Below the pieces are notes generated by a model that made no database searches, was not told the origin of the DNA, and saw only the letters and a program-made list of their open reading frames with translations. The translations under genes and the position numbers were made by a program. 64,000 nucleotides of DNA, from NCBI GenBank assembly GCA_026413255.1, contig JAOCZO010000034.1, positions 24,342 through 88,341 of the forward strand. The letters run 5' to 3'. This DNA is from Fereydounia khargensis. Lineage: Eukaryota > Basidiomycota > Ustilaginomycetes > Urocystidales > Fereydouniaceae. Shown in pieces: positions 6,386 to 45,907 of this stretch. The first letter of the stretch is position 1, and each line of letters opens with the position of its first letter.

Positions 6386-9112
6386 TTACTTGTGGGTTTG
6401 GCGCGACTGCTCTTCCGCAAGCGAGAGTTCGATTGCAAAGCGGAGGTCGTCGTCCTCTGTGTTGGGGCGCAGAGAGGGAGATACGCTCCGTGCCCCTGTG
6501 GGCTGAGAGGGCGCAGATGCCGGTGAAGGAGACGGCCAGTCCTGGATCGAGGAGGAGGGGGAGAAGGACAGGTGCGCAAATGCATCCTGGGCTTGGCGTG
6601 CCTCCGGATCCGCGGCTTCGTCCTTGCTCAGCATGAGGGCGTACTCGAACGCCTCGGCCTCGGTCAGGTCGCCGAGCTCAAAGTCGCGCGTCTGCGCGCG
6701 CAGCCGCGCGTGTTCGGCCTGCCTCTCTTCCCGCTCGCGCGCCAGCTCCGCCTGGCTGTCCAGCAGGTCTGCATGCATCTGGTGCTTGGTCTCGCTCATC
6801 CGCGGGCCCCGCTTACCCTTACTCCCAGCCCCAGCCCCGGACCCGCCTTTACGCCGGAGCAGAGGCTCAGCGCGGAACGCGAGCACCTGCGGACCGACAG
6901 AGGCCACGAGGCACTCGTGGTCCGCGATTATCTGCGTCACGCGGTACCGCGACTCACTCAGCTCGCCCGTCGCCAGCATGCGCGCGGCGAGCCGCGTGGC
7001 CGCGCGGTCGTTGATCACCCGCACCACGTCGCCAGATAGCGCGCACAGCACCTTGATTGCGCCGTCAGACGTGCCGGCGATAATGTGGAGCATGGTGATC
7101 TCCAGCGCCGTAATCGCGGCCGTGTGGGCGTGCAGCACAACCGACGGCTGCACCTGCATCGAGACCGAGGCCGTGGCGGGTTGCCCCCACCGCCCCTGCC
7201 AGTCTGCTCCGTCTGACGCGACACCCTCGGCTTCCCAGTCAAACAGGTAGATGGATCCCGTCGCCGTGCCGATGCATACAAACTTGCGCTCCGGGTACTG
7301 CCCGGGCCCCGTGAGCTGGTGCAGCGATGGCCCGAGAACAAGAGCGGGCACAGAGTCGCGCCAAGCCGTGCCGGACATGATGGGTGAGCGCGCGAGCGGG
7401 CTCGGCCCCGTCGAACGGTGCTGCGGCTGCCGTGGCTCAAAGTCGGGCCGGATCGCTGTGATCTCGTCCACTATCGGTGCGCCAAACACCGTGGTGACCA
7501 CGGGCGCGGGCGCCACAGCTGCCTCGTCTCGCTGGATCGTGTGGCGCACAAAGACGCGCGCGCCAGAGTGGAGTGCGAGCACCGAGAACGTCGGCGCAGC
7601 AGGGCTCGCGTCGATCCGGAGGTGGCTCAGAGCAGTCTCTGAGCCGGTGCCGGCGGGCAGCTCGATCGTCTCGCAGCGAACGCTCTTGACCAGGTCGACG
7701 AACTGCCGCTGCGCCTGTATCAGATCTGGGCTTGGCTCCTTATCTGGCTCGTGGTTCTGCAGCATTTCAGGATCAGTCGCTTCTGCGGGTACGGCTAGCA
7801 TGTCTGCAATCGCAATGTTGTGCCACACGAATACCTTGCCGGATGCCGTGCCAGCTGCAATGATGCCGGCGCGTGCGTCGTAGTCAACGACACATATGGG
7901 TGAGGCGACTTGCGCCTGGTTAGATCCGGCTGCGGCTGATGCAGTCTGGCTGGCGTTCGGGGCTGGTGCGGTGGAAGTGGAGGCGACCCAGAGAGGTAAC
8001 GCACGGAGCGAGCTCCAGAGGCGCACTGTCCCGTCGTGGCCCACGGTGACGAACGTAGTAGCCACGTCGCCAAGCGATGCCAGCTGCTGTCGAAGGCGGT
8101 CAGGGCTCCTTCCTGGGCCGTGGACACTGTTGTGGTCGCTTGAGAAGGGCAGCGCAATGCCGAGGACCGGGCCAGCGTGGCTGCCGCGTGGAGAGAACTT
8201 GTGACTCTTGATTGCACCACGCGGGTTGGATCCCTGACGTGAAAGTGTGGTGAGACTGATCTCGCCAGAGCGGAAGCCCCAGGCAAGCATGCTCGCGTCC
8301 GCACCCATGGCCAGTGCTGTGACATGCGGACTGAACTCTAGGTTCGGGTTGCCGTTGCCAGCACCGTTTGCCGTCCCCTCGGCGTCCAGGTAGCCCTTCA
8401 CTACCTTGCCTGTGAATGGATTAGAGCGGGATGCGACGCCGTAGAACTCAGATGCGGAGATCATAAACGTATGCTGCTTGGAAATGGAGATCTGATCGAT
8501 GACAGCCAGCTTGGGGTTTGACAGCGTTGTTGGTGCGCGTGACTTGCGCCATCGTCGGAGGAGCTCGGAACGCTGCTGGAACTCGGACTTCCAAGATGCC
8601 GGGCTGAGTCGACGGAATGAAGGCACGGCATGTGAGGACGAGTGTCCGGGATCAGCGGCCTCAAGGCTGTAGAAGGTGGCAAAGGCAGCGCGCCACGTAG
8701 CATCGTCGCGTGCAACGCGGGCCCAGGGATGGCAAACGGCCGCAGCACGGGCAAGGGACACGGGGTCCAGGAAGGAGAAGACGCGCACGAGTATCTCCGG
8801 AGCGAGCTCAGATGCGAGCAATCCTGCAGTGATAGGCTCGTCATCATCGGTATCTGGATCCTGTAGCTGGACATTGGGGTCGGTGAGGCGTATCACGGTG
8901 CTGGTGTTTGGTTGGTCGTCGGTTGCCCGTTGCTTGCCCCACGCCTTGCTTGCTGGGGAGATACTACCGAGCGCGCCGCCGGTGGAAGCATCGGGGCCGG
9001 GATCGCGTTGTGTGTCATTGTGGATGGAGGCGCTGGATACAGGCGAGGTGTGGGCTTGTTCTTCAATTCTATTGATGTTCTGCGAGGAGCTGGGGCTGTC
9101 TTCGACTGACAT
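6386..9112 (-). CDS. F-box/WD40 protein with C-terminal UIMs (Ufo1-like)
   Basis: Probable substrate receptor of an SCF ubiquitin ligase: the F-box binds Skp1, the WD40 propeller binds substrate, and the ubiquitin-interacting motifs bind ubiquitin or shuttle factors. One uninterrupted 908-codon exon. The F-box is at about residues 99-145 (ELAPEILVRVFSFLDP, then a Trp-containing helix). WD40-type blades follow (VTVGHDGTVRLWSS; IIAAGTASGKVFVW; IIAGTSDGAIKVL). A basic patch, a helical Glu/Arg stretch and two UIMs close the protein (EAFEYALMLS and DLRFAIELS). The same domain order, F-box, WD40, UIMs, occurs in yeast Ufo1, a receptor for Ho endonuclease. Orthology is inferred from architecture alone, so I give no symbol. 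The start ATG is the first in frame. Confidence 0.78.
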   Translation of the reverse strand: MSVEDSPSSSQNINRIEEQAHTSPVSSASIHNDTQRDPGPDASTGGALGSISPASKAWGKQRATDDQPNTSTVIRLTDPNVQLQDPDTDDDEPITAGLLASELAPEILVRVFSFLDPVSLARAAAVCHPWARVARDDATWRAAFATFYSLEAADPGHSSSHAVPSFRRLSPASWKSEFQQRSELLRRWRKSRAPTTLSNPKLAVIDQISISKQHTFMISASEFYGVASRSNPFTGKVVKGYLDAEGTANGAGNGNPNLEFSPHVTALAMGADASMLAWGFRSGEISLTTLSRQGSNPRGAIKSHKFSPRGSHAGPVLGIALPFSSDHNSVHGPGRSPDRLRQQLASLGDVATTFVTVGHDGTVRLWSSLRALPLWVASTSTAPAPNASQTASAAAGSNQAQVASPICVVDYDARAGIIAAGTASGKVFVWHNIAIADMLAVPAEATDPEMLQNHEPDKEPSPDLIQAQRQFVDLVKSVRCETIELPAGTGSETALSHLRIDASPAAPTFSVLALHSGARVFVRHTIQRDEAAVAPAPVVTTVFGAPIVDEITAIRPDFEPRQPQHRSTGPSPLARSPIMSGTAWRDSVPALVLGPSLHQLTGPGQYPERKFVCIGTATGSIYLFDWEAEGVASDGADWQGRWGQPATASVSMQVQPSVVLHAHTAAITALEITMLHIIAGTSDGAIKVLCALSGDVVRVINDRAATRLAARMLATGELSESRYRVTQIIADHECLVASVGPQVLAFRAEPLLRRKGGSGAGAGSKGKRGPRMSETKHQMHADLLDSQAELAREREERQAEHARLRAQTRDFELGDLTEAEAFEYALMLSKDEAADPEARQAQDAFAHLSFSPSSSIQDWPSPSPASAPSQPTGARSVSPSLRPNTEDDDLRFAIELSLAEEQSRQTHK

Positions 9113-27969: not shown

Positions 27970-30900
27970 CTAGCCTTTGGTGGTCGAGTCGCTGTTCCAG
28001 CTGTCTCGGATGCGTCTGTCTGAGGGGCTGTTGGGGGAAGAAGCGAGGACCTCTTCGTCGCCGGGGACTTGAGACTCGATCTCGCGTGCGGTGTGGAGGA
28101 GCGTGACGATATCCGCATGGTCGCAGGGGTTAGCGAGGAAGTCGCTCTGCGTGTCTGTGGGTCAGTGCGATTTCATCACATCACGTGGGGTTTCGGGTCA
28201 ACACGGTACATACCATAGCGAGCATATCTGCACTCGGGCGCTTCTCTGCATCCATCTCGGTAGCCCAGTGCAGGAACTGCTTGATCTCGTGCGACAGCGT
28301 GTGTGGGTTAGAGAGGGGCGGCAGTCCCATTTTGGCGGTGAGCGTGATAGCGCGGAGAGGAGGAAAGTCGACGCGCGGCGGGTCACCCTCTATCATCTCC
28401 CAGAGCACGACGCCGAGCGACCAAATGTCGCAGCGCACATCGTAGCTGTCGGCTCGGATCACTTCGGGCGCCATCCAGTACGGCGTACCGACCACGGATC
28501 GGCGGTGCGTGTTCCCCGGCCCCAGCTGAGACGCATGCGTCAGGTCCGACAGCTTAGACACGCCAGCGGGCGATAGCATAATGTTGTCAGACCGCACGTC
28601 GCGATGGATGATAGACCGGTCGTGCAGGAACGCTAGCGCGTCCACCAGGTCCGCCATGATCCGACTCATTACACCCTCACTCAGGTCCAGACCCTCTCCT
28701 ACTCCCTTGAGCGCTATCAGATCCGCGAGACTCCGGTCAGCTAGCTCCTGCACAATCCACACGCTCGACTGCTGCAGAAACACGCTGTCGAGCGAAACGA
28801 GGTTGGCGTGCCCGCACGAACGCCACAACTCGACCTCTTTCGGGAGCCCTTGCAGACGCAACGAGTCGTCCGAATCGCCTTCCTCACCCGGAATCTGCAC
28901 CACCTTTACTGCGACGCGCTTGCCCTCTGATACCCGTGTGGCAGCATACACTGGACCGCTGTCGCCATCGCCGATCATCTCCAAGTCTGCAAATGAGCCA
29001 ATCGGCGGAGGCGGCGCTAGCACTCGCTTCAGGTGCGCCAGACGAGCCGGAAGTACCCCGTTGGGATCCACCGCCGCTGCCGCCACTGCCGTCTTCGTCG
29101 CTGTCTTCGCAGTCAGCGTGGATGTGGCCACCGCTGTCGATTCGCTACTGGCATCTGCATCAGGCTCTGATCCCGGCGAGACAGACCGATCTGACGCAGC
29201 CGTGGACCTTGCAGAAACGCTTTTCTTTGTATCTCTGCTGTCCTTTCGTCGCTCCTGGCGAGGCGCAGGTGCCGTCGACGCTTCATCGGCCTCGACACGC
29301 ACCTTAGCAACAGGCAGAGGCGGAACGGGCGGTGCAGTCTGCAGGCTCATTGACGTGGGCATGACTTCATCGAGGTCCATCGACTGGCGTGCAAGCATCA
29401 TCTCCCTGAATGAGCGCATCGCTTCCGAGTCGCCGCCAAAGATTGAGTCCGTGTCAAAGCCGCTTGCATAGTGCATCGACATGGGAAAGCGACTGACATC
29501 ACTGCTGACACGATGCGCTGCAGGGCCGAGGTCCAAGTCCGTGTCTGTGTCCGCGTCTTCGCCGTTGATCCATTCCTTTGCGCCCCCGACGTCGGATCCC
29601 CTGTCCGAAGACACACGCGACGTACGTTCACTGCCGCTTTCGCTGTCGTCTGTTGGCGCAGGTGAGCGACCTGCTGATCGTCCAGTCGCACTGCCAATCG
29701 ACATGGGAGACTCCGATCGAGACGCGGACGTTGACTTGCTGAGTTGCGACACTCTGAACCCTTTGCTCCATGCTCGCTCGTCGGAAGGCTCGTCCCATGG
29801 GCTCTCAGAGGCATCCATAAACTCCTGGTTTGCAGGCGAACGGTCCGAGTGATCGTCTCTGGATGAGGGTGACACCGCGCCGCTGTAGCGACTTCGATCT
29901 GACAAACGGTCGGCATTCGGTGATGGTGCAGATCTGTTCGAGGCCTGAGGAGCCCGGATCACCGGTCGAGGGGCCGAGTAGAATCCATCCGAGTTGGGCA
30001 GAATGTACTCTGGTTGGGCTCGAATGACAGGCCTGTCCGACTTTGGCGGCGGGGGTGGCGGAGGACCCAGTGAGTCCCGCATGGACGCCCGAGACGATTG
30101 TCCGCTTGCCGCTCCCCAAGGATCATGGTTCTGGTTTTGGCTAGACGGGCGAGAGAAGCCTGACTCGTAATCTGATGCCGGGCTACGCGGTGAAACGCGT
30201 CCGTACGAAGAGCTGCTGGGCGGACGGATGCGGGACGAGTCCTGCGGGTATGACCTCTCAAACGCCGATGGCGAGGATGCATTTTGCTGTCGAGTAAGGA
30301 GGCTGTCACTAGATGTCTGGTTGCGGAGACCGTGCTGGCCTGGTCGCTTAAAGCCGAACGAGGTACCAGATTCGTCTGAGCCAGTATTGGACCATCTAGC
30401 TGACGACGAGGGTGGATAGATACGTGCTGGCAGATTGCGCCGTTCGCGAAGTCCCAGACCGCGAGGCCGACCATGGTCGTCCGAAGAGCCGCTGTGCCCC
30501 TGTTGGCTTCCAGAGCAGCTTGATGCCTTGGTTGCCGACTCGAGCTTGGTCCACGACTCGTGAGAGTGATCACGCAGACCCGGGGCAGGTGAGGCAGTGT
30601 CGCTGGCTCGAGAAGAGTTCATCGAACTGCCGCTGGCTGAACGTTTCTCAGGGTGATGCAGCTGGCCAGAGTGATCCTGGTAGGACGTCGCACTGGGCCA
30701 ATCCTTTTCAGGCACGACAGGCGAAGCACTGCTGCTGTGGCTTGAGGCGGATCCAACAGACGTGCGATAGAGGGAGGCAAAAGTGGAACCTGCAGACGGA
30801 GAATGCAGAGAAAGTCCTGGACTCAGATTCCGAGTGTAGCTGGTCGAATGTCCAGAGGAGCTTGCTGCGCTAGGCGAGGGCCAGCCGGCAGCGTCACGGT

Positions 30901-32929
30901 CCGATGAGCCTCGCCAGCCTTCTGAAGGCACCTTGAGCGGCGCAGGCGATGTTCGGAACCTTGGTGCGTCACCAGTCGAGCTTTCGGCATGCTCAACCAT
31001 CATCGGGCTGACGGACGAGAAAGCTGGCGAGACAGGGTTGGTGAGGCGACGTGGGGACTGGCTCGGCAGCGATGAAATATCCGTGACTGTTGAGCTTGGA
31101 CTAATCCCGGGGCTTGACAGTTCAAGACTGTGTGTCGAGGAGGCATACTTGCGTCCACTAAGCTGCGACGCTCGCACAGGTCGGAGGATGCCTTTGGTAG
31201 CCTTGGAAGCCTGCGCAATCTGGACGACTACTTCTTCCTCTTCTTCGTCATCAACTTCCTCGTCGTCTGTGTTGTCCACACTGGTGGCTGAGACACCTTG
31301 TTGCGGGTCTTTCCTGGTCTCCGTGGGCGGAGCAGAAGCAAGATGATTCGGCTTGCCAACGCTGCCGGACCGGTTTCGAGGACCAGATGGGAGACCGATA
31401 CCGAGTCCACCAATGGCAGAAGCCAAGTCGCTGACTGATCTCGACTGCCTTCGGTGCTTCTTGCTGTCCTCACCTTTGCCTTTCGAGCCGGGAAGCGCGC
31501 TGAGTAGAGACGTTGCCCAGTCCTCGTCAGAGCGAAGGTCTGGCAGTTGCGGGCTCTTGTCGATGACGGGAGTGAACAGGTCACTTCCGAGGTTGAAGGG
31601 GCTCTTCGGACTTGCAAGGTCCCATCCTTGCTCAAGGACACTGCTATACGAGGTGCTGGCGACTGAGGCCTTCCTTACCAGATCCGCGCCTTCGTTCTCG
31701 GCCGGGTCATCAGCTTGAGCATACCTGGTGCGCGAGTCGTTGAACATTCGGTACTGATCTGAGCCGGGTCGATGGTGAGACCCGAGCTGTTTGGACGAAT
31801 TCGCTTGCGATGGCGGAGCAGAGGCGACCATGGCGAATTGGAGGTCATCATCGTCTTGCAGCTTTTCAGAAAGAATCTTGCGAATCTCTGCCGGGTCTTG
31901 TCCGAGCCGCGTCTCTTTCTCGACAAAGTACTCGGTCTGCTCTCGAACGAGGCGAGCAGCGGCTTGCGGATCTTGGCGAACGCTGTGAGAGTCCATGCCG
32001 TGCGAGAGAAGGACCTGTGCCCAGGATGAAGGAAGACCAGTGTATCCGTGTGGACCTACGTCGACATGCACGTTGTGGGAGACGCCGTAAGGTAGGCTGA
32101 TACCGGGGTCCTCGCCGGATTGCACCGAGTCACGGGTGTTCTGACTGGCCCTGCTAGGACCGCGCGAGTCTTCCGCGTGCTTGATGGTAGAAGACGAGGA
32201 AGACGTGGGCAAGGTGGCGGTCGAAGTCGGTGTTGCGGTGCCACCACCCCTTGATGAGCTGGGACGGAAGAAGGCGGCATGGGAGTTGCTAGCGCCGGAG
32301 TGCTCCTGGCTCGTTCCAGGGCGACGAAGTCTGGCGGAGGGATTGATGCCGAGCTTCTTGAGACCGGCAGTCACGGTGGAGGAGGCAGCAGAGGCGGCAG
32401 ATCTGGCTGAGCTAGGGACCTTTGATGGCTCTGCACGATCTTTGTCGCGGGTATTGTGATACTCGACCTGAAACGATCGAGGTCCGTCGTCGTGAAAGTC
32501 GTCATGGCGGTTGCGGGAGCGGACTTCCGAGTCGGACCTTTGCTCGAATGAGCGAGAGGCCCACGAGTCTGCTGGGGATTGAGCTTGAAGGGCTTCGGGC
32601 GGCAATTGGGGGAGATCTCGGTCGAAATTGATGCGCGGGGACTGGGAGGGCTGAGACCGTGAGGAGCCGGGCCGCGGGGCATATGCGAGGCGTTCCTCGG
32701 GACTGAGGTACTGGTTGCGCCCTAATGTGGAAGAGCCCGAGTATGAAAAGACGGGGGAATGGTCTGAATCATAGTAGGCTGCTGCTGAAGAGGACGAAGC
32801 GGGAGGGGGAGCGGTATCGATGGTAGGCGAGGGGCGGCCATGGTTGGGGTGCCATTTGAGCTTGGATATCTTGACACCATTTGTGGCTCTGGGCGTGCGC
32901 TCGCCCTCCTTTTGGGCTGCACTCAGCAT
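27970..32929 (-). CDS. PAK-family protein kinase with CRIB domain and altered DFG motif
   Basis: Probable effector of Cdc42 or Rac. Exons 32929-28214 and 28146-27970 (67 bp intron, phase 0) give 1630 residues. A CRIB/p21-binding motif lies near residues 276-315 (ISLPYGVSHNVHVDVG, then YTGLPSSW). About 1000 disordered Ser-rich residues follow, with a poly-Pro run. The kinase domain starts near 1310: Gly loop GDGDSGPVY, Lys in VAVKVV (about 1340), HRDVRSDN (about 1439), then SDLTHAS where PAKs have DFG, then GTPYWMAPEV and CDIWSLGVVLWEM. The last exon completes the lobe with SDFLANPC and HTAREIE. No PH domain is visible, unlike Cla4. The Lys, HRD Asp and DFG-position Asp remain, so weak activity is possible. 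The open frame extends two codons further with a TTG; the first ATG was taken. Confidence 0.8.
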
Positions 32930-34731
32930 GGGCAAGTTGCCCCGAGGGTGGTGCGGGAATGCAACAAGAGATCGGAAGCGTGGAGGAGAAGAGCTGGAGC
33001 GTGGTTGATGATTGTTGCGCGCGATGCTGATGCTGGTGATGGCGCTGCTACTTGTCTGCTGATGCTGATGCCGATGCTGAAGCTATTCAGGACTCCAAGT
33101 TGGCGTCGGGTGCAAGATGTGTGTGTGAGAGAGGCATGAGCAGGAAGGGGTTGAACGGCGCTGGTATCTGGTCGACTAACTTGACGTGCTGGCACAGAAG
33201 GGAACGAATGGAGGGTATCTTGTTCGATCTGTGTGTTGCGGTGAAGAGGAGAATGAGAGAGAGAGGGAGAGAGTGAAAAAGGGATGGAAGAGGTATAGTA
33301 TGACAATGACGCAAAGATAGAGAGGGCGCAGGACGGAGAATGAGAGAGTGAATGATTGACTGTTTGATTGTTTGATCGCGAGAGGGGCCGAAACGGAAAC
33401 CAACACTGATCCGCAACGCAGCGCAGTGCAGTGCAGTGCAGAGCAGAACTGAGCAGAGCAGAGCTGCGCAACGCAGCAATGGCCGAGAGAGCTGCTGAGC
33501 CAAGGTGGGAGCGCGGAAAAGGAAACAAAAAGAGGGGAACCCGCAAATCGCAAATGCAGGTCAGGTCGCCCGCCCGCCAGTCACACACACTCTCTCTCCT
33601 TCAGTGCCAGACCGACGGGCCCGAAAGAAAAAGGAAAAGGAAAGGAAACGCGGCCAGCAAGCCAGCAAGCCAGCAAGCCAAAAAACGCCCATGCACAGGC
33701 GCAGCACACTCGTCAGGCTGAGAATTGCGAGCACATGTCCAAAGTCCGAGAAGAAGAGTAGAAAAAGCCAAGCCAAGGGCCAACGAGCCACCAAGCCAGC
33801 AAGCCAGGTCCGGTTTTCTGGCTAAGCCAGCGAGGCAAGCAAATTCAAGTCGCCTGTTCTGCACCGTTCATGCAAGATGCAAAAGGGCGACGGAAGGGCG
33901 CGACGCACTGTCTCAGAGCAGCGAGCGCCAGTTAGGCTGGGCTGGGCTGGGCTGATTGGCAAAAGAACGGGCGAAACTGGCACCGCCAACACGCCTGCGG
34001 CCAGCCTGCCTCTGCCAGCCACCCTCCCTCCCTCACTCTGCCATTCACGGGCAGCGGCAAGCAGCGTGCTATACTGTAATTGATTGGACTGATTGCGGAA
34101 TGAGCGACAGTAGCTGGCTGCAGCCAAGGCAGGAGCAGGAGAGAGCTCGCTCGGGTCCATGCCATGCCAGATCTTGCAACCTGATCTCTCTTACGTTGCA
34201 TCGGCCTACTGTACTCAAAAAGCGGCAACCGCTCAACAGTGCATTGGCAGCTCGGATCCGAAGGCAACCCGAATGGGAATGGCACCCTTTCATTTCCATT
34301 CATTCCGATGTAATTCTCCCCTCGGGTTGCTTGGGCGGCAACAGCAACAGTACAAATATTGTTCAGGTACAGCGCATTGTATCACTGTGCTATGCTACGG
34401 CATAATCAAGCGTGGGATTCATCACAAAGCAAATGGAGAACTGACCCTCGGGACAGATGAGAGGTTCGTCAACTGGGAGTGGAATCCAGAACCCAGTGAG
34501 CAGCACGGAGCGGGTGTAACTTGTCAAGAAAGGGAGCTGGGATCCTCGCGGCCATCGCTCAACAACCACCGTTTCTTCATCGACATTCTTGAGCCTTGAG
34601 ATAGATGCGATGGATGCTAGATTGGAGTTCTATTACAAATACACGAGTGACTAACTGGTTGGCCGGGATAAGTCAGCCGGGGTGGTGCAGTGAGCTTCTG
34701 GTGGTGAACGAATGTGATATGTGCGAGCTTG
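32930..34731. other. 1.8 kb gap: PAK-like promoter and downstream flank of the 93-residue gene
   Basis: Non-coding. Structured elements are a GCAGT/GCAGA-rich tract at about 33418-33478, an octamer array AGCCAGCA at 33653-33680 repeated in part at about 33786-33808, GGGCT repeats near 33937-33955 and a few CTACTGTA-like sites near 34070 and 34206. Open frames are short and composed of repeat-derived residues. Confidence 0.5.
33653..33680. repeat. GCCAGCAA octamer array
   Basis: Three and a half tandem copies of GCCAGCAA. The reverse complement of the same octamer is tandemly repeated at 35262-35292, about 1.6 kb away, on the other side of the 93-residue gene. Confidence 0.8.
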
Positions 34732-35464: not shown

Positions 35465-38400
35465 ATGTCCTCTCAGTCCCAGGAGGATATCGAGTGAGTA
35501 TAGCAACCCGGCCTCAGTTTCCTTCACATGTTAAACTGAAACAACTTGCTCTTCCCTCAATCAGGCAGATCGTAGCGATCACAGGCTGCAACCCAGCCCA
35601 GGCTACACAGGTGCTCTCCAAGTACGACAACAATGTAGAGCGCGCGATCAACTCCATCTTTGACGATCCAGAACAGTTCAATCGTCCTCATCCGCCCCCC
35701 TCCACCTCAGAGGCAAACGCTGTCGTACCATGGACTGGTGGCAACAACCTCAACAACAACAGCAATAACGCCATCACCTCCAATACCTCCACCAACAACG
35801 CCGCAGCCGCAAGCTACGATCCGCACCAGGAGTGGTCCAAACCACCAGGGCAACCACCATCACGGCCACAGACTCACACCAATACTCACTCACAGCAGCA
35901 GTCGGTCACATTCAAACAGCCCTGGGAAGATGCTCCTCCCTACTATCAGGGCCAAGGTACGTCCCTATTCTCACTCACATTGAGCTCAGCACTGATCTCT
36001 CCATACCGGAAACTGATACACTGACTCTACTAGGTGGTCAATCCAATGATATCATCGATCTCACAGGCGGAGCAGGCGACGACGACGAGGATCTTCAACG
36101 TGCCATGGCAGCCTCACTTCAAGAGCAACACCACAGCCAGCAACCGGGATACTACTCTCACTCCTCACAACCGGGCCAAGACACATCGGTGGGGCCCCTG
36201 CAACAGCACGGAGTGAGTAACGACAATGGGCATCATCCTGCTGCGATAGAGAGCACGTCATCGGACAGTGATTGGGAGATTGGGAGACTTGCCAAATCCC
36301 GAGCATTCGGTCCCAGCTACAGAAAGAGAACAGCAGCTGCTCCGCATCGTGCATCAGAGCCCGAGCCAGAACGAAAGCATCCACCAGTGTTATGTGACGC
36401 AGCAGCAGCAGCAGCATCCTCATCCTCCTCCTCAAGGTATTCCTTGCGCAACCGCAACCGCATCACAAAACCAAACAAGGGACTGCCCGAGCCGGCCAGA
36501 AACTCCTTATCTGCATCTGAGCTGTCGTCTCACACCACGTCCTCATCGCGCGCGAGAGGATCTCGCCACGCCACTCACACTTATGGCCGCAGAGGCTCTC
36601 GCAGAGCTCGAAAGCAGAGCTTGTCCTTGGAAGGGTGGGATAATGTGGGCATCATTTTCCTTTTCCTTGACGTGTTTCGCTCTCGACTTGCTCATTTGAC
36701 AGCCAACATGCGAGCATTGTGGCACTGCGGCTTTCTGGAGGGAGAAGTGCAAAGGGGGCGAGACCCCTTAACAGAAGTGAAGACGAGCAAGCCCAGTGCC
36801 GTCATCACCGTTGTCCTTTCGTTCATACATCCGCCATTCTGACGCTACAGGTTACTGACAACAGACGTGACTTGCCCTCCTTGCTTATCGGCAGAATAAC
36901 AGTCTTTCGGAGGACGAACAACTTCGACAGGCTCTCGAGGCCAGTGTGCAAAGCCTACCGGGAGGTCTCAGGCAGGAAGCTTCCGGCTCACGGACACCTG
37001 TCATTCCACACCATCTTGAAGTAGGAGAGCACAGCAAGCGCAAACCAGGTGCACCCGTTGCTCTTGTCGCGCCTTTCGCCTCGATCGAAATTGCAGCTGC
37101 GATGCTTCAGGCTTTTGCTTCTCTAACTCAGGTGCGACATGCTTTCCTGGCTTTCCAGCCAGCGGACGAAAGAGCAGCGGATCTCGTCAATTACTGGAAA
37201 GGCGTCTCTCCGCCCGAAGCGGACGGGGGGTCCCTCAGTGGTATGGATCCCTCCCGAAAGATCAGCATCGACATCTGTCGCCGTGTACAGACGCTCTTTG
37301 CATTCATGAACGAGACGGAGCGTGGAGCTTGCATCGTGAGGGATGTAACATCATTGACGCCAACAAATATTGTTGCTCTTGGGGCGGAAAACGCCAACCC
37401 GGTGCGGCTTGCGAGTCTCTACTACGAGTTTCTGACTGAGGCGTTCCTCCAGGCGTCACACTTGCACGCCACACTGGCGATACCTGCGACCGAAGACATT
37501 GGAATTGATCTTGAAGAGGCCCGCCGAAACTTTATCAACGAACGATCGAGGTGAGTCGCGACAGTATTACAATCTAGACATTTCTCCCGTGCTGACGTGC
37601 TTCATCTTTTCTACCTCACTGCCCAGTATCTTCCAATCCTGGGGTGCCAGCGCATTGAATGCTCCGCCGACACCGGTAGATGGACAGGAGCCGGGATCAG
37701 TGCCAGCGCCGCAAAGCATTCCAGTTGCCAAAACATACTTGGGGCTTGTGCACGATTCTGTCAATCGAGACGTCTACTCGTGCCTACGATCTGCGCTTGC
37801 CGCGGACGGTGAGGCAGCCCTTATGACTGACGCCGCGCAGGTGTTGTGCCTCAGCGTTGTGCATCGGACTGACGAATCACTGGAGCGCTTCTCGGTCGAC
37901 GAGACGTTGTACGTGGATCCGTTCATGTGGGACAAGCGCGGCGGAGTCCGCCTTGATTCGGAGATGCAGACGGGCGCGGTGGCGGGTTTGAACGAGTCGC
38001 TACGGGAGCTGGAAGCACGCAAACGCAAGCTGAATGGCGATGGCGGCAAAGACACCAAGACGCTGCTGCAGGCCTCGATCCAGTATTTCGAGGAGCTCGC
38101 GATCAGCCCGGACGACGAGGTGCGTGCTGCGGTGCAGAAGGAGGCGGGACCGCAGTTGCGCAACGTGGTCGCTGAACTTGAGGCTGAGCTGGAATCCACG
38201 GACGAGGCGATCGCGTCGATTACGACACGAGTGAGGGGTATGCGAGCCGAGGCGAGGGAGAGAGCCAAGGAGGAGGCACTGAAGCCTGAGTGGCGCACAG
38301 TAAGTTGTGGTTCAGCCTGTGCTTTGCGTGTGACATAGGAAGAGACGCTCTGACCAGTTTGACTTGGCCTTTTGGCAGATGGAGTACCGGTTACAAGCGG

Positions 38401-38896
38401 TTCTTGTGCACGAAGCGCGACGAATCTATGCGTATACGCGGCAAGCAGACGGGCGATGGTGGCGGATCTGCGATGGAGCTGCGACTGAAGTCACTCTGGA
38501 TGAGGTCCAGGGCGACAAGATACAGGATCGCGACTCGAGTGGAGTGTTCTGGATCTGCTATGCCAAAGTGGACGCGGATGCTGCTTCTCAAGACGAGCCA
38601 TGCCCGGAGACGACCAAGGTGAGCGGTTGATACTCTACGCTAGCGTTTGAGCCAGGTTGATTGCGTTGACTGACACAGGTACGCTGGTTGCCTACCAGGC
38701 TGGTATCGCTGAGGACAACCTCACGTTCCAATCCGAGCTGCTGTCTCTGGTGCGCTCGGACGCAGCGTCACGGGCGACTAGCGACAGGGCGGAGATGGAC
38801 CAAGGGATAGATGCCGGTACCGATACTGATGCTGTCGCGGCCAGTCAGGACAGGGGTACGCTGGCTGATGAAGAGGACAATGGCGGGGCCGCGTGA
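35465..38896 (+). CDS. UBA-UIM-USP protein of the USP25/28 family, predicted inactive deubiquitinase
   Basis: Best model has seven exons: 35465-35493, 35565-35956, 36034-36212, 36895-37550, 37627-38299, 38379-38618 and 38699-38896, total 788 residues. UBA at about 10-50 (IVAITGCNPAQATQVL). UIM1 at about 158-172 (DEDLQRAMAASL). UIM2 at about 203-217 (EDEQLRQALEASV). A divergent USP domain follows with the family's long helical insertion (NESLRELEARKRKL; ELEAELESTDEAIAS). In place of the Cys box it reads PVALVAPFASIEIA, with Ile near residue 264 where the catalytic Cys should be. In place of the His box it reads LQAVLVHEARRIYAY, the GHY triad being lost; Asp in ICDG at about 675 remains. It probably binds ubiquitin without cleaving it. 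The 682 bp fourth-exon intron is uncertain; see findings. All other junctions are GT-AG and frame-consistent. Confidence 0.72.
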
Positions 38897-40190: not shown

Positions 40191-43100
40191 ATGTCCTCAT
40201 CATCCTCCTCGTCATCGCGACGCCAGTCCAACCACATGGGGCTCGGCTCTCCGCATCTCGACCTCCCATATACCCAGCAGCCCACCAACCTCCAGTCCAC
40301 TCCTCGTTTCCCCTCTCCAGCGCTCCCTCCCTCCGATGTCGAAACCACAAACTGGAACGCCGTCAAGATGCTCGCCAGCAAGTACGGCATCACTCTCAGA
40401 AACACTGCCGACGAATACAACTCATCACCTCCCGACCGTGACGCCCACGCTTCCCACTCCCCAAATCCAGACTCGGCTCCCCTCGAGTCGCAGGATCTAG
40501 GCGTCGGTACTCCCTTCTCCATCACAGCTACGCGTCTTGAGGGAGGACGCTTCATCTACAGGTTCAAATGGCGAGGTAGCGCCTCGCCTCAGCCCTCTGA
40601 CCGCCCTGCCCCTAGCACCGACTTTGGTCCCCTCCTTGACCCCGCCGCATCGACCGCTTCATCCACCTTTCCCCGGTCGAGCTCCTCTGGTGCCGTCGCC
40701 TCTACCAACGAGTCTTCTGCCACCGAGGGCTCCAGCAGTCTCTTCCGCAAGTCAGGCAACCTCATGCTAAAGAGCTCCCGCTCCATTCCCGTTCTCAGGG
40801 GAAATCGCTCAACTGCCTATGGCCGCTCTCTCCTCCCAGCAACCCAAGTGCCAACAGCAGCCTCGTCAGCCAACCCCGATCGAGGTCTTCTCTGGAACCC
40901 ATTAGCGCCTCCCGTCAACACAGCTGGTCCTTCTCTGCTCCAAGTGCCGCCCGCCTCGGTCTCCATGGCACGAGCCGAAAGCACTCCTGTCAGTGGCCTC
41001 TATGCTCCACGAAATTGGTGGACAGGGCGTCTCGAGGAGGGAGACGTCCTTGGTGCCATTCTTGGGCTACGACAGGAGGAGCTTTGGGTCTCGGCCGCTT
41101 CTCAACCAAGCAGGCATACCGGCTCTGATCAGCAGCCATCATCGTCTCAGTCAGTCACAGCCTCGCCAAATGTTGCCGCGCGATCCAGTGAGACCATCAG
41201 CAACACGCTTGGAACCAATGCCCAAGCAGCTGACCTCTCAGCGCATGGCTCCCAGTCATCCGACAGCCGCAACAATTTCAAAGTCTCTCCCTTTGGCTCC
41301 GACGTATTGCTCAAGTCAGACTGGTCTTCGGAGCATCACACTCCCACACTCTCCAATCCAAGAGAGGGGCTTCAGCCTCCATCCAAGCGCCGACAGGTCA
41401 ACTTTGTCGAACATCCAACCTCACCCGGCGGTCACATCCTGCCAGAGTTGGACTTTGGCAACAAGTTTGCCAAGTCGCCCCGCTTGCATCAGCTTCGCGA
41501 ACAGCCTTCATTCGCTTCTACCGCATCCGACTCAACCGCCCGCGCTCCGGCTGATGACGAGGACGATCAGGCCAAGTTCCCACCTGAGCTTGTCCCGCAT
41601 CTCAGTTCCAGGCGCCAAGATGGCACCTTCCCGGATACCTTCATCTTCGACGTCCTCCAGCACTACCGCCACCCATCCAGCCGAGAGCGCAGCCAAAGCT
41701 GCTCTTCCCTTGATAACCAGACCCGTGCAGAGGGCAAGTCCTTCTCCGCTCACCGCAGGCTTCAGTCCGCAGAGCTCATCAAGTCTGCGGCCAGCGGTCA
41801 GTCATCTAGCGATGCCCACAAGAATCTAATCGCTGAAGCCCAGGCGCTGCCCACCTCGGCTGCTCCCGGAGATGATCCTCGATTCGCCATCTGGGCTGTC
41901 CGCAGTGAGACCGACAGTGGCACCTTCATCCTCTCCGGAAGGGACGGCGAGACCAAGGATCGCGCGTCGATCAGGCTTGACCCTTCCGCTCGCAACTCTG
42001 TGCAACCGACCAGTGGCAAGCGGCGAAGCGTAAAGACTGGCTCTGGACCATCCAAAGGCTCGGACACGCCATCTTCAGAAGGCTCATCACGACAGTCATT
42101 GGGTCTGGGCAAGTCCAGCAGCTCCAAAGCCGCCTCGTCAGCTACCGAACAGCGCGACTCGGTCCTATTCCCTCCTGGAAAGCCCGTCATGCTCGCAGCG
42201 ACTCCAGCACGTCTCGTTGCTGAGATCACCTCGGAGATTGATCAACGGCTGCTCACAGACTTCTTTTACACCTTCCGCGAGTTTCTCGATTCCCTCGAGC
42301 TGCTTCGCCTGCTCACTCTTCGGTTTGACTGGGCGCTTCAAGAGGCTTCATCTGCCCAGGACGAGGCTCGAAGGCGCATTGTCCGCGTGAGAACGTATGT
42401 TGTGATCAAGCACTGGTTGCTGCAGCACTTTGAGTTTGACTTCCTGCCCAATCGAGAGCTCCGCCAAAGTCTCGCTGGCTGGCTCAACACGATCGCCAAG
42501 GATCAGCGCGTGGTGTCGCGCCCGGCAGACCAGAGCATCATTAAGAGCCTGCGCAAGGTAGTTCGCGGGCTCAAGGATACCTACTCGCAGACCGGCGTTG
42601 GCGGTCTCCTCTTCTACGACGCTGGCCGCCAGCCTGGCGATGGTGGCACCGGACACGCCAAGAACAGCTCATACGGTGGCAGCTCGTCAAGCTCGCGGCG
42701 CCGTCACGGCAGCCTTCGTCTGGATGAGCTGACCCAAGCAGAGGGTAGCCGAGATAGTGTTACTTGCCAGACTTCTCCCGTGGTTGGAGACGACATTGAT
42801 TTAGACTTTGTCGGCGATGACGGATCTTCTGCCGAAGGCGGCAAATCATCATCTTCGGCTCTGGCGTTGGGAAGCATGGGACTTTCTGTGCCGGGGGGCG
42901 CCGATAGTGCTGGTGCGGTCCGCAAGGCCGCGATCAAAGCGGCTGCTGAGTCGGTGGTTTTGTCACCAACTCGCCAGCCTGGCATGAGGGCCAAGCCGGC
43001 GCCATCCGTCGTACCTTCTCCCAATCTGGGTATGCAGACGAGCTCCCCACCTCCGCTTCCGCATGCGCACAATGCCTTGTCCCGAGTCTTTGTGCACACG

Positions 43101-45907
43101 GTCGGTCGACTCTCGCGCTTCAAGCGCGTGCTTGGAAGCCGGAGCACCCTTCTGCCTCAGGTTGCGTCCGATCCGCACAACGAGGATCTTGAGTTTGAAG
43201 CCAACGACTCGGGCGACCTTCTCTTTATCCGTGGTGGTCTGGAAAACTTTATTCATTACTTTAATCTCGGCAACAATGCCAATGCTGCTCCTGAGATCGT
43301 CCTTGGTGACGGTCGCGGCGAGGCACTCAGCCAGACGGACGAGGAAGATGAGCGCGTGGCTCAGGTCTCTGACACCACTGCACAGGATGAGACTCCCAGT
43401 ATGAGCACCGCTTCTGTTGATCGTTCGACACCCGCAAGCTCGATCGACTTGGTACGGCCCACCAGTGTTGGAGATGTGTCCGCTGATAGCAAGGCTCAAA
43501 CTGGTCTCGGCATCCAAGGAATGACTGACGACCTCACACCAGACATGGAAGACCTCGCCGAGACGGCACAGCCGACGACGAATGACCCGCTCGGACTCGA
43601 ACTTGGTGCACTGCACTCACTAAGTCCCACCAAGCAGCCGAACCGCGGTCCGGAGCATCTCCATCACACTACCAGTGACCAGACGCTGCGCTCGTTCTCG
43701 AGGACCGACGACTCGATTGCCGTCACCTCAGCTGCTGCTGACTTGATCCGGCGATCATCTTCGAGAAACTCGCGACCGATGCCTCCATTGGGAGGGACAC
43801 GAATTTCGGTCCGGTCTTCGCACTTTAGTGGACCGAGGATTGTCCAGATCGATGACATTGATCTGTCCAGTGACGAGGACGACGGTGCAGTCCGTCGAGC
43901 GCTTCGCCGTCTGCCGGGTGCGCGTGATCTGCGAATGGCCAACAACGTGCGTGACCTCGAGCCTGTTCGGCAGAGCATGGACTCGATGAGCTCCTTTGCC
44001 TTTGGCCGTCCCCCAACCTCTACCTTGTTTGGCCGCCCGATGAGCGCGGATAGCTTTAGTGCTGTTGGACTCCAGCCCCCCCCGCCTCCCGCGCCGCCAG
44101 TCATTGGCACCGTGCAGTCCGAGATGTTTGACCCGGATGAGGCTCTACAGGGCTACGAGCTCGTCAAAGGATTCCAGCTCGACGGCCTCGACAGTGACGA
44201 CGACGAGCCTGGTGACGTCGAGGCCGCCCTACGCCGCCTCGAGGGCATCATCGACGAGGACAAGCAGCGCGAGAAGGCCAGGAGGGTGGAAGCCATGTGG
44301 GAAAAGTCACAGGAACGGAACAAGGTTGGATCGGACGCCGGCAACAGGAACACACATCACAGCGACCCGGCCTCGATGCATCCCGCGGACAAGCAGCGCG
44401 CGTCGACGTCGTCGCGCGTCTCTTTTGCTTCGCGTGCGGAGGTCAACTCAATCCTCGGCGGCGACGTGGCCGACAACGAGGAGGATCTGTCTGGCCCCAT
44501 GTCGATTGACCGCAAGGATCGCACCCTGTCGTCCCATGCCTCGTTCCTCGACCTCGCTGACGACGACGAGTCGGAAGGCCACACGTCGCAGCGTACGTCT
44601 CGGTCGTCGCGACTGGATTACGACGCACAGCGCTCGCCGGCGCCGTCTGAGCGACGGCTGGCCAAGCTCGAGTCAACTCCTGTCGCGGACAAGATGCAGC
44701 TTGAGCAGGAGCAGCAGCGCCGGCCCGAGTCCGAGCCCAGGCCTGTTCCGGCTGGTGTGGCCGCTTCGTCGGCCAAACTGGCGCAGGCCACGGGCAGTGG
44801 CGATCCCGCTGCAGGCCGGGCAGCTGGCGCCAAGTGGATGTCACCACGACGGGAGACGGAGACGGGCGGCTTTGCGCGCGCGATCCCCGCGGCGCGGACG
44901 GCAAAGGCGGGTATGTGGAACTTCCCGCCTGTGCACCGTTCGTTCCTGCTCTCGTACCGCTCTGAGGTGATTGCGCGGCAGATGTGCCTGATCGAAGCGG
45001 AGCTGCTGCAGGCCGTGAGCTGGGACGAGCTGGCGGGCTCGCGGTGGAAGGAGCGCCGCTTCCCGACCGAAGTGACCAACTGGGAGACGTTCTACCGGGA
45101 GCGCGTGCGCGACCGTCTCTCGGCGCAGCGGCAGAACGTGGCGCACCGCGAGTGCGCGGTGGAAGCGATCGTGGCGCGCTTCAACCTTACGTCCAACTGG
45201 GTCGCGAGCGAGGTGGTGCTCACGCAGAACCTGGACGAGCGGGTGGCCGTGGTGAGTAAGCTGATCCGGGTGGCGTGGAAATGCTACCTGGCGTCCAACT
45301 TTGCGTCGCTGGCGCAGATTATATTTGGACTCTCGACGCCGTGGGTGGAGCGGCTGCGGCGGACGTGGTCGCGCATCGGGTACTACGAGATGCGGATATG
45401 GCGCGACCTCAACTCGTTTGTGGGGCCACGTAACAACTTCAAGTACCTGCGCAACGCGATGGTCATGGCGCCGCAGGGCGAGGGGGCGGGCTGCATTCCC
45501 TTTTTTGGTCTGTTCCTGTCTGACCTGATCGTCAACGATGCGCTTCCGGCCTTTCTGGACGGCGAGACGTCACCGTGGTCGGGGTCGGGGTCGGGGTCGG
45601 GGCTGGGGCTCGAGCCACTCCCACACGGCGTGCAGACGCAGCCGCTGGTCAACGTGTACAAGTTCCGCGTGGTCGCCGCGACCATCGCGAGCGTCCTGGC
45701 GTTCCAGGAACGCAGCCGCGCCTACGCGTTCGAGGCCGACGCCTCCGTCTATGTCAAGTGCCTCAAGATCCGCTGTCTCCAGGGCGAACAGCTCGCACAG
45801 TACGTCACCCTGCCTCTCGCTCCCTCTCCCTCTCGCTCTGTGACTTGACTTGCTAACTCACTCGGACGTTGCTTACTGCCAGAATCTCACACGCAGCCGA
45901 ACCGTGA
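40191..45907 (+). CDS. Ras-type guanine nucleotide exchange factor, Lte1-like
   Basis: Expected to load GTP on a Ras-family or spindle-position GTPase. Exons 40191-45799 and 45883-45907 (83 bp intron, CTAAC branch site) encode 1877 residues; the last exon supplies only the domain's end, ISHAAEP. RasGEF-N lies at about 665-805 (AATPARLVAEITSEID; LTDFFYTFREFLDSLELL). About 770 low-complexity residues separate it from the catalytic RasGEF domain at about 1580-1870, with WNFPPVHRSFLL, NLTSNWVASEVV, LNSFVGPRNNFKYL and CIPFFGLFLSDLIV. The wide separation of the N and catalytic parts recalls yeast Lte1, but Bud5- or Cdc25-type identity is not excluded; no SH3 domain was seen. A GS-rich stretch encoded by a GGGGTC repeat (45577-45603) is inserted in the catalytic domain. 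Confidence 0.8.
45577..45603 (+). repeat. GGGGTC microsatellite inside the RasGEF catalytic domain
   Basis: About four tandem hexamers encoding Gly-Ser dipeptides in a predicted loop. Hexamer length preserves the frame. Confidence 0.8.

Follow-up and report, generated by a model that had tools for sequence, protein, structure and literature searches.

Can a fungal gene built like the deubiquitinases USP25 and USP28, but without their catalytic boxes, still serve ubiquitin signalling, and if so, in which known system? The question is raised by a gene in a 64,000-nucleotide stretch of Fereydounia khargensis DNA (GCA_026413255.1, contig JAOCZO010000034.1, positions 24,342 to 88,341), hereafter the window. 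The window gene (35465..38896, + strand, as are all its features below) has seven exons and encodes 932 residues. An initial annotation had described its product as a USP25/28-family deubiquitinase that has lost its catalytic Cys and His, acts as a ubiquitin-binding scaffold or dominant regulator and, if conserved, represents a new class of fungal pseudo-deubiquitinases. Our analysis leads us to favour, as the probable though by no means settled reading, a Rup1/Ucp6-type adaptor that belongs to the USP25/28-Ubp2 family but has no catalysis of its own.

Results

The N-terminal part of the window protein carries the ubiquitin-associated (UBA) domain, the small ubiquitin-like modifier-interacting motif (SIM) and the ubiquitin-interacting motif (UIM) of a USP25/28-type N-terminus. 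The UBA domain and two UIMs of the initial annotation were recovered by Pfam: the former at residues 6-46 (35480..35673, split by intron 1; PF14555 UBA_4, E = 5.9e-11), the latter as two stretches with a joint E of 3.3e-6. UIM 1 (residues 156-172; 36078..36128) is the best PF02809 stretch and also aligned with USP25, and UIM 2 (LSEDEQLRQALEASVQS, residues 348-364; 36904..36954) is the second, its place being read from the sequence. When residues 1-201 were searched against the PDB with phmmer, human USP25 (2mux) came top of 26 rows (E = 4.2e-4) and the row after it, an unrelated protein, stood at 0.032. The 2mux match spans IIDLT to DEDLQRAMAASLQE, the stretch in which USP25 has its SIM and first UIM; it includes the SIM-like IIDLT (residues 147-151; 36051..36065; VIDLT in USP25), and the IIDLT block ends DLQRAMAASL in the window protein. 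The Pfam USP_UIM_N family was under its cut-off (E = 0.031).

The C-terminal half was compared by HHalign with a profile built from USP25, two USP28 pieces and the fungus's own Ubp2. A match of 227 columns (E = 2.3e-7 for one comparison; probability 93.5) takes in the helical insertion, the His-box region and an EDNxxFxxEL tail, and a second, co-linear match, which is weak (E = 0.1), covers the helix following the Cys box. The match scored 60.5, whereas the reversed sequence reached 27.0 and 50 shuffles averaged 15.7 +/- 2.2 (maximum 20.3); for the portion preceding the His box alone the score was 29.1 (reversed, 13.9; 50 shuffles, 14.9 +/- 2.2, maximum 20.8). Single-sequence comparisons gave 40.3 with USP25 (reversed, 21.3) and 33.0 with Ubp2 (reversed, 23.0), while two other USPs of the genome did not stand clear of their reversed controls (23.1 versus 22.4 and 14.3 versus 17.2). 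The helical insertion that the initial annotation had noticed (about residues 660-785; 37916..38293) resembles the dimerising insertion of USP25/28, and the match runs across it; a structure model of exon 5 has long helices across it at low confidence. Following the catalytic domain, AEDNLTFQSEL (38708..38740) aligned with EEDNQRFEKEL of USP25, whose letters were verified. Beyond this tail motif, which both proteins share, the window protein continues for only about 50 residues, as against a region of about 340 residues in USP25/28 (passages of PMC6509359). It differs from USP25/28 also in the loss of the catalytic Cys, His and third residue and in its UIM 2, which lies about 190 residues away from UIM 1.

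Several results weigh against this family assignment and would suit an adaptor that has UBA and UIMs but, in its C-terminal half, no kinship with USPs. With the whole protein as query, the Pfam UCH profile (PF00443) was absent from the rows up to E = 10, and the sub-domain by itself scored 13.2 bits, short of the cut-off of 23.9. A PDB phmmer search with the catalytic part placed USP28 second (E = 0.54) behind an unrelated reductase (0.35). Further, the reversed core outscored each of the 50 shuffles, which means that helix-like composition contributes to the HHalign score. We nevertheless consider an unrelated C-terminal half highly improbable: the HHalign score lies far above 50 shuffles and at twice the reversed control, each half stands up separately, the co-linear match includes both insertion and tail, and the SIM-UIM block matches USP25. 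Searches with the single sequence were weak; the comparison with the USP25/28/Ubp2 profile was clear. No relative of exon 4 was found in prokaryote and viral contigs, as expected. Judged by these alignments, the window protein is a member of the USP25/28-Ubp2 family, with the catalytic-domain homology and helical insertion that define the subfamily.

Extending the alignment from the HHalign match places a degenerate Cys box at PVALVAPFASIEI (residues 398-410, exon 4; 37054..37092). The catalytic Cys position is occupied by Glu409 (37087-37089), or by Ile408 if the alignment is shifted by one residue, and Pro404 or Ala403 stands in place of the oxyanion Asn. Directly after the box, AMLQAFASLTQVRHAFLAFQP aligns with USP25 in the second, weak HHalign match, and the QQD stretch of USPs found no match in the window-protein alignment. 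The His box is represented by VHEARRIYAY (residues 797-806, exon 6; 38406..38435), which aligned with VHEGQANAGHYWAY of USP25/28 so that Arg802 (38421-38423) takes the position of the catalytic His; four residues are absent just before it. Both boxes are therefore altered, as the initial annotation had claimed, and neither is found intact elsewhere: none of the nine Cys residues of the window protein has a Cys-box context or opens the expected helix, and no GHY, GHF or GHW occurs in six frames of the window gene. The protein accordingly has neither the Cys box nor the GH(Y/F) His box of an active USP. The late Asp said to be kept is indeed present as Asp819, but USP nomenclature, as given in passages of PMC10867860, places the Asn and the Asp of the Asn-Asp pair third and fourth among the critical residues. 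The Asp is therefore the fourth; the canonical third residue, which is Asn in USP25/28, is replaced by Cys818 (Cys818-Asp819 in the alignment; 38469..38474), and Asp819 alone of the four critical residues is retained.

On its sequence, then, the window protein is a pseudo-deubiquitinase. An active enzyme using a different nucleophile or base seems to us the least probable of all readings, given that the Cys, His and oxyanion Asn positions and the QQD stretch are all altered and that the expected helix starts without a Cys. In its favour, nine Cys and 24 His residues remain in the window protein, and USP53 and USP54 were annotated as inactive yet are reported to be active in passages of PMC12037411.

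Intact boxes might also be concealed by an assembly error, a mis-joined model or the decay of a pseudogene. The exons (35465-35493, 35565-35956, 36034-36644, 36895-37550, 37627-38299, 38379-38618 and 38699-38896) begin with an ATG exactly at 35465, end with a stop codon exactly at 38896 and are stop-free when joined. All six introns are GT-AG; five measure 71-80 nucleotides, and intron 3, upstream of UIM 2 and the USP part, has 250 nucleotides and a weak donor (GTGGGC). For the last exon, the acceptor at 38698 was favoured over that at 38678 because the AEDNLTFQSEL tail matches USP25. The frame used had the top codon log-odds among the three forward frames in 7/7 exons, although narrowly in exon 6 (-0.014 versus -0.037), and 932 stop-free codons have a chance of about 2e-15 from base composition, which makes a decaying pseudogene unlikely. 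We thus agree with the initial annotation that frame and splice sites are intact while the two altered boxes lie in separate exons (4 and 6).

A six-frame scan of the window for N-x-G-[NA]-[TS]-C-[YFWHA] gave a single match, NSGATCF at 37125 (+). What speaks for a concealed box is that this match falls in exon 4, near the degenerate Cys box but outside the coding frame. Synonymous shuffling of the gene produced one like it outside the coding frame in only 8/4000 cases. We judge this noticeable coincidence to be due to chance, because the same DNA read in the coding frame (ASLTQVRHAFLAF) aligns with a USP25 helix and the Cys-box flanks are absent from the off-frame peptide, which has no GL upstream and no NxxLQ helix downstream. 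Together with the open, preferred frame and the lack of any GHY, GHF or GHW, this makes a concealed active site highly improbable.

Discussion

Which known system does this protein belong to? Passages of PMC2626285 describe yeast Rup1 as a UBA cofactor that links Ubp2 to Rsp5 and has PPPSY at residues 131-135. The window protein likewise joins a UBA domain to a PPxY motif of the WW-binding type, PPYY (residues 134-137; 35935..35946; motif scan), within residues 131-137, where Rup1 has its own. Both partners are encoded in the same genome, of which 10.46 Mb in 40 contigs was searched. An intact Ubp2-type deubiquitinase with RPT and UCH domains, GNTCYLN and GHYF lies on contig C22 (L015:2529-5720, - strand); no UBA or UIM was found in the two open reading frames scanned. 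A C2-WW-WW-WW-HECT ligase, of Rsp5/NEDD4 type by its domain architecture, lies on contig C1 (L025:1817-4471, - strand). This Ubp2 and that of yeast share the USP subfamily of the window protein, including a YRLxAVxxH segment, but unlike it keep GNTCYLN and GHYF and have the RPT domain. The pseudo-USP part found the window gene alone in the genome (three exon matches). Architecture, PY motif and partner genes therefore suggest membership of an adaptor family already known from the Ubp2-Rsp5 system, Rup1 in S. cerevisiae and Ucp6 in S. pombe, and the proposal of a new class of pseudo-deubiquitinase in fungi is probably wrong. Rather, the window protein is probably the counterpart of Rup1/Ucp6, in which case Rup1 and Ubp2 would be sister proteins, Rup1 being the inactive one.

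A number of observations tell against this identification. The Rup1 sequence in our comparisons is verified at the PPPSY position only and may be contaminated by the window sequence. The window protein alone, compared with this Rup1 sequence by profile, scored 18.6, which 7/60 shuffles reach and which is not significant; HHalign gave a probability of 0.24, and full-length comparison gave weak pieces (BLASTP, 0.032; phmmer, 0.06). The Rup1 sequence scored 22.7 against the USP25/28/Ubp2 profile without the window protein (1/60 shuffles reach this), and against the combined profile with it reached a probability of 7.3 (E = 0.0048). A PPxY occurs in 323/5000 shuffles of the window protein. To our eye no UIMs are evident in the Rup1 sequence used, whereas the window protein has two as well as the SIM-like motif. 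Literature passages describe Rup1 as a UBA protein only; among those searched, mostly outside subscription papers, none states that it is a USP relative. Finally, both structure models were of low confidence (mean pLDDT 36.7 and 44.4).

The window protein could instead be a USP25/28 orthologue distinct from Rup1, which lost catalysis in its own lineage and serves, free of any partner enzyme, as a scaffold that binds ubiquitin. The family evidence (the USP25 SIM-UIM match and HHalign with its controls) serves this possibility equally, and the UBA-SIM-UIM order of USP25/28 and the weak direct similarity to Rup1 support it. Against it, the PPxY is placed as in Rup1, the Rup1 sequence scores on the combined profile, and the genome holds no second gene like the N-terminal part below E 0.05 (best other match, 0.054), although a diverged Rup1 would escape this search. 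We regard a separate pseudo-deubiquitinase as unlikely, if still the most credible of the alternatives.

For the favoured Rup1/Ucp6-type adaptor, the loss of Cys and His with retention of the ubiquitin-binding modules makes the scaffold role proposed by the initial annotation a natural one. We propose a heterodimer of the window protein and Ubp2. The PPYY motif would dock onto the WW domains of Rsp5, and UBA and UIMs may retain ubiquitinated cargo or auto-ubiquitinated Rsp5. Pairing of the pseudo-USP domain with Ubp2, for which the USP25/28-type helical insertion is the probable interface, would bring active Ubp2 to the K63 chains made by Rsp5. Two sister subunits would thus divide the labour, Ubp2 providing catalysis and the window protein ubiquitin reading and ligase docking, where animals have a single homodimeric enzyme. 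The insertion of USP28 is necessary and sufficient for tight dimerisation, and leaves the active domains spatially separated, according to passages of PMC6509359.

More tentatively, and as a scenario that we hold to be possible rather than probable, Ubp2-Rup1 may be a split USP25/28 dimer. After a duplication, one copy, Ubp2, would have stayed catalytic but shed the UBA/UIM readers. The other, Rup1/Ucp6, to which the window gene belongs in this scenario, would have lost catalysis but retained the readers, its E3-docking PPxY being either newly acquired or inherited; the two would still join via the insertion helices of their ancestor. The window protein, with its USP25-like SIM-UIM block still present, would be an intermediate that exposes this ancestry. 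If true, this would explain the nature of the C-terminal region of Rup1, which is about 490 residues long, and how Rup1 could bind and stimulate Ubp2. It would also show cleanly how an enzyme homodimer can turn into a catalytic subunit and a dead ubiquitin-reading subunit, and tie the human USP25/28 enzymes to the yeast Ubp2-Rsp5 module.

Pseudo-deubiquitinases of the USP family, and Rup1 itself, are already known. USP39, PAN2/USP52 and USP50 are, in literature passages, USP relatives regarded as inactive like the window protein, but differ from it in subfamily and architecture. They are also not known to have UBA-UIM modules.

Elsewhere in the window, an F-box protein with WD40-like matches (6386-9112, - strand) has a C-terminal UIM-like match of 18.9 bits, the Pfam cut-off being 21. 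Neighbouring open reading frames encode a RasGEF protein (40191-45845, + strand) and a protein kinase that also carries a P21-Rho-binding domain (28181-32935, - strand).
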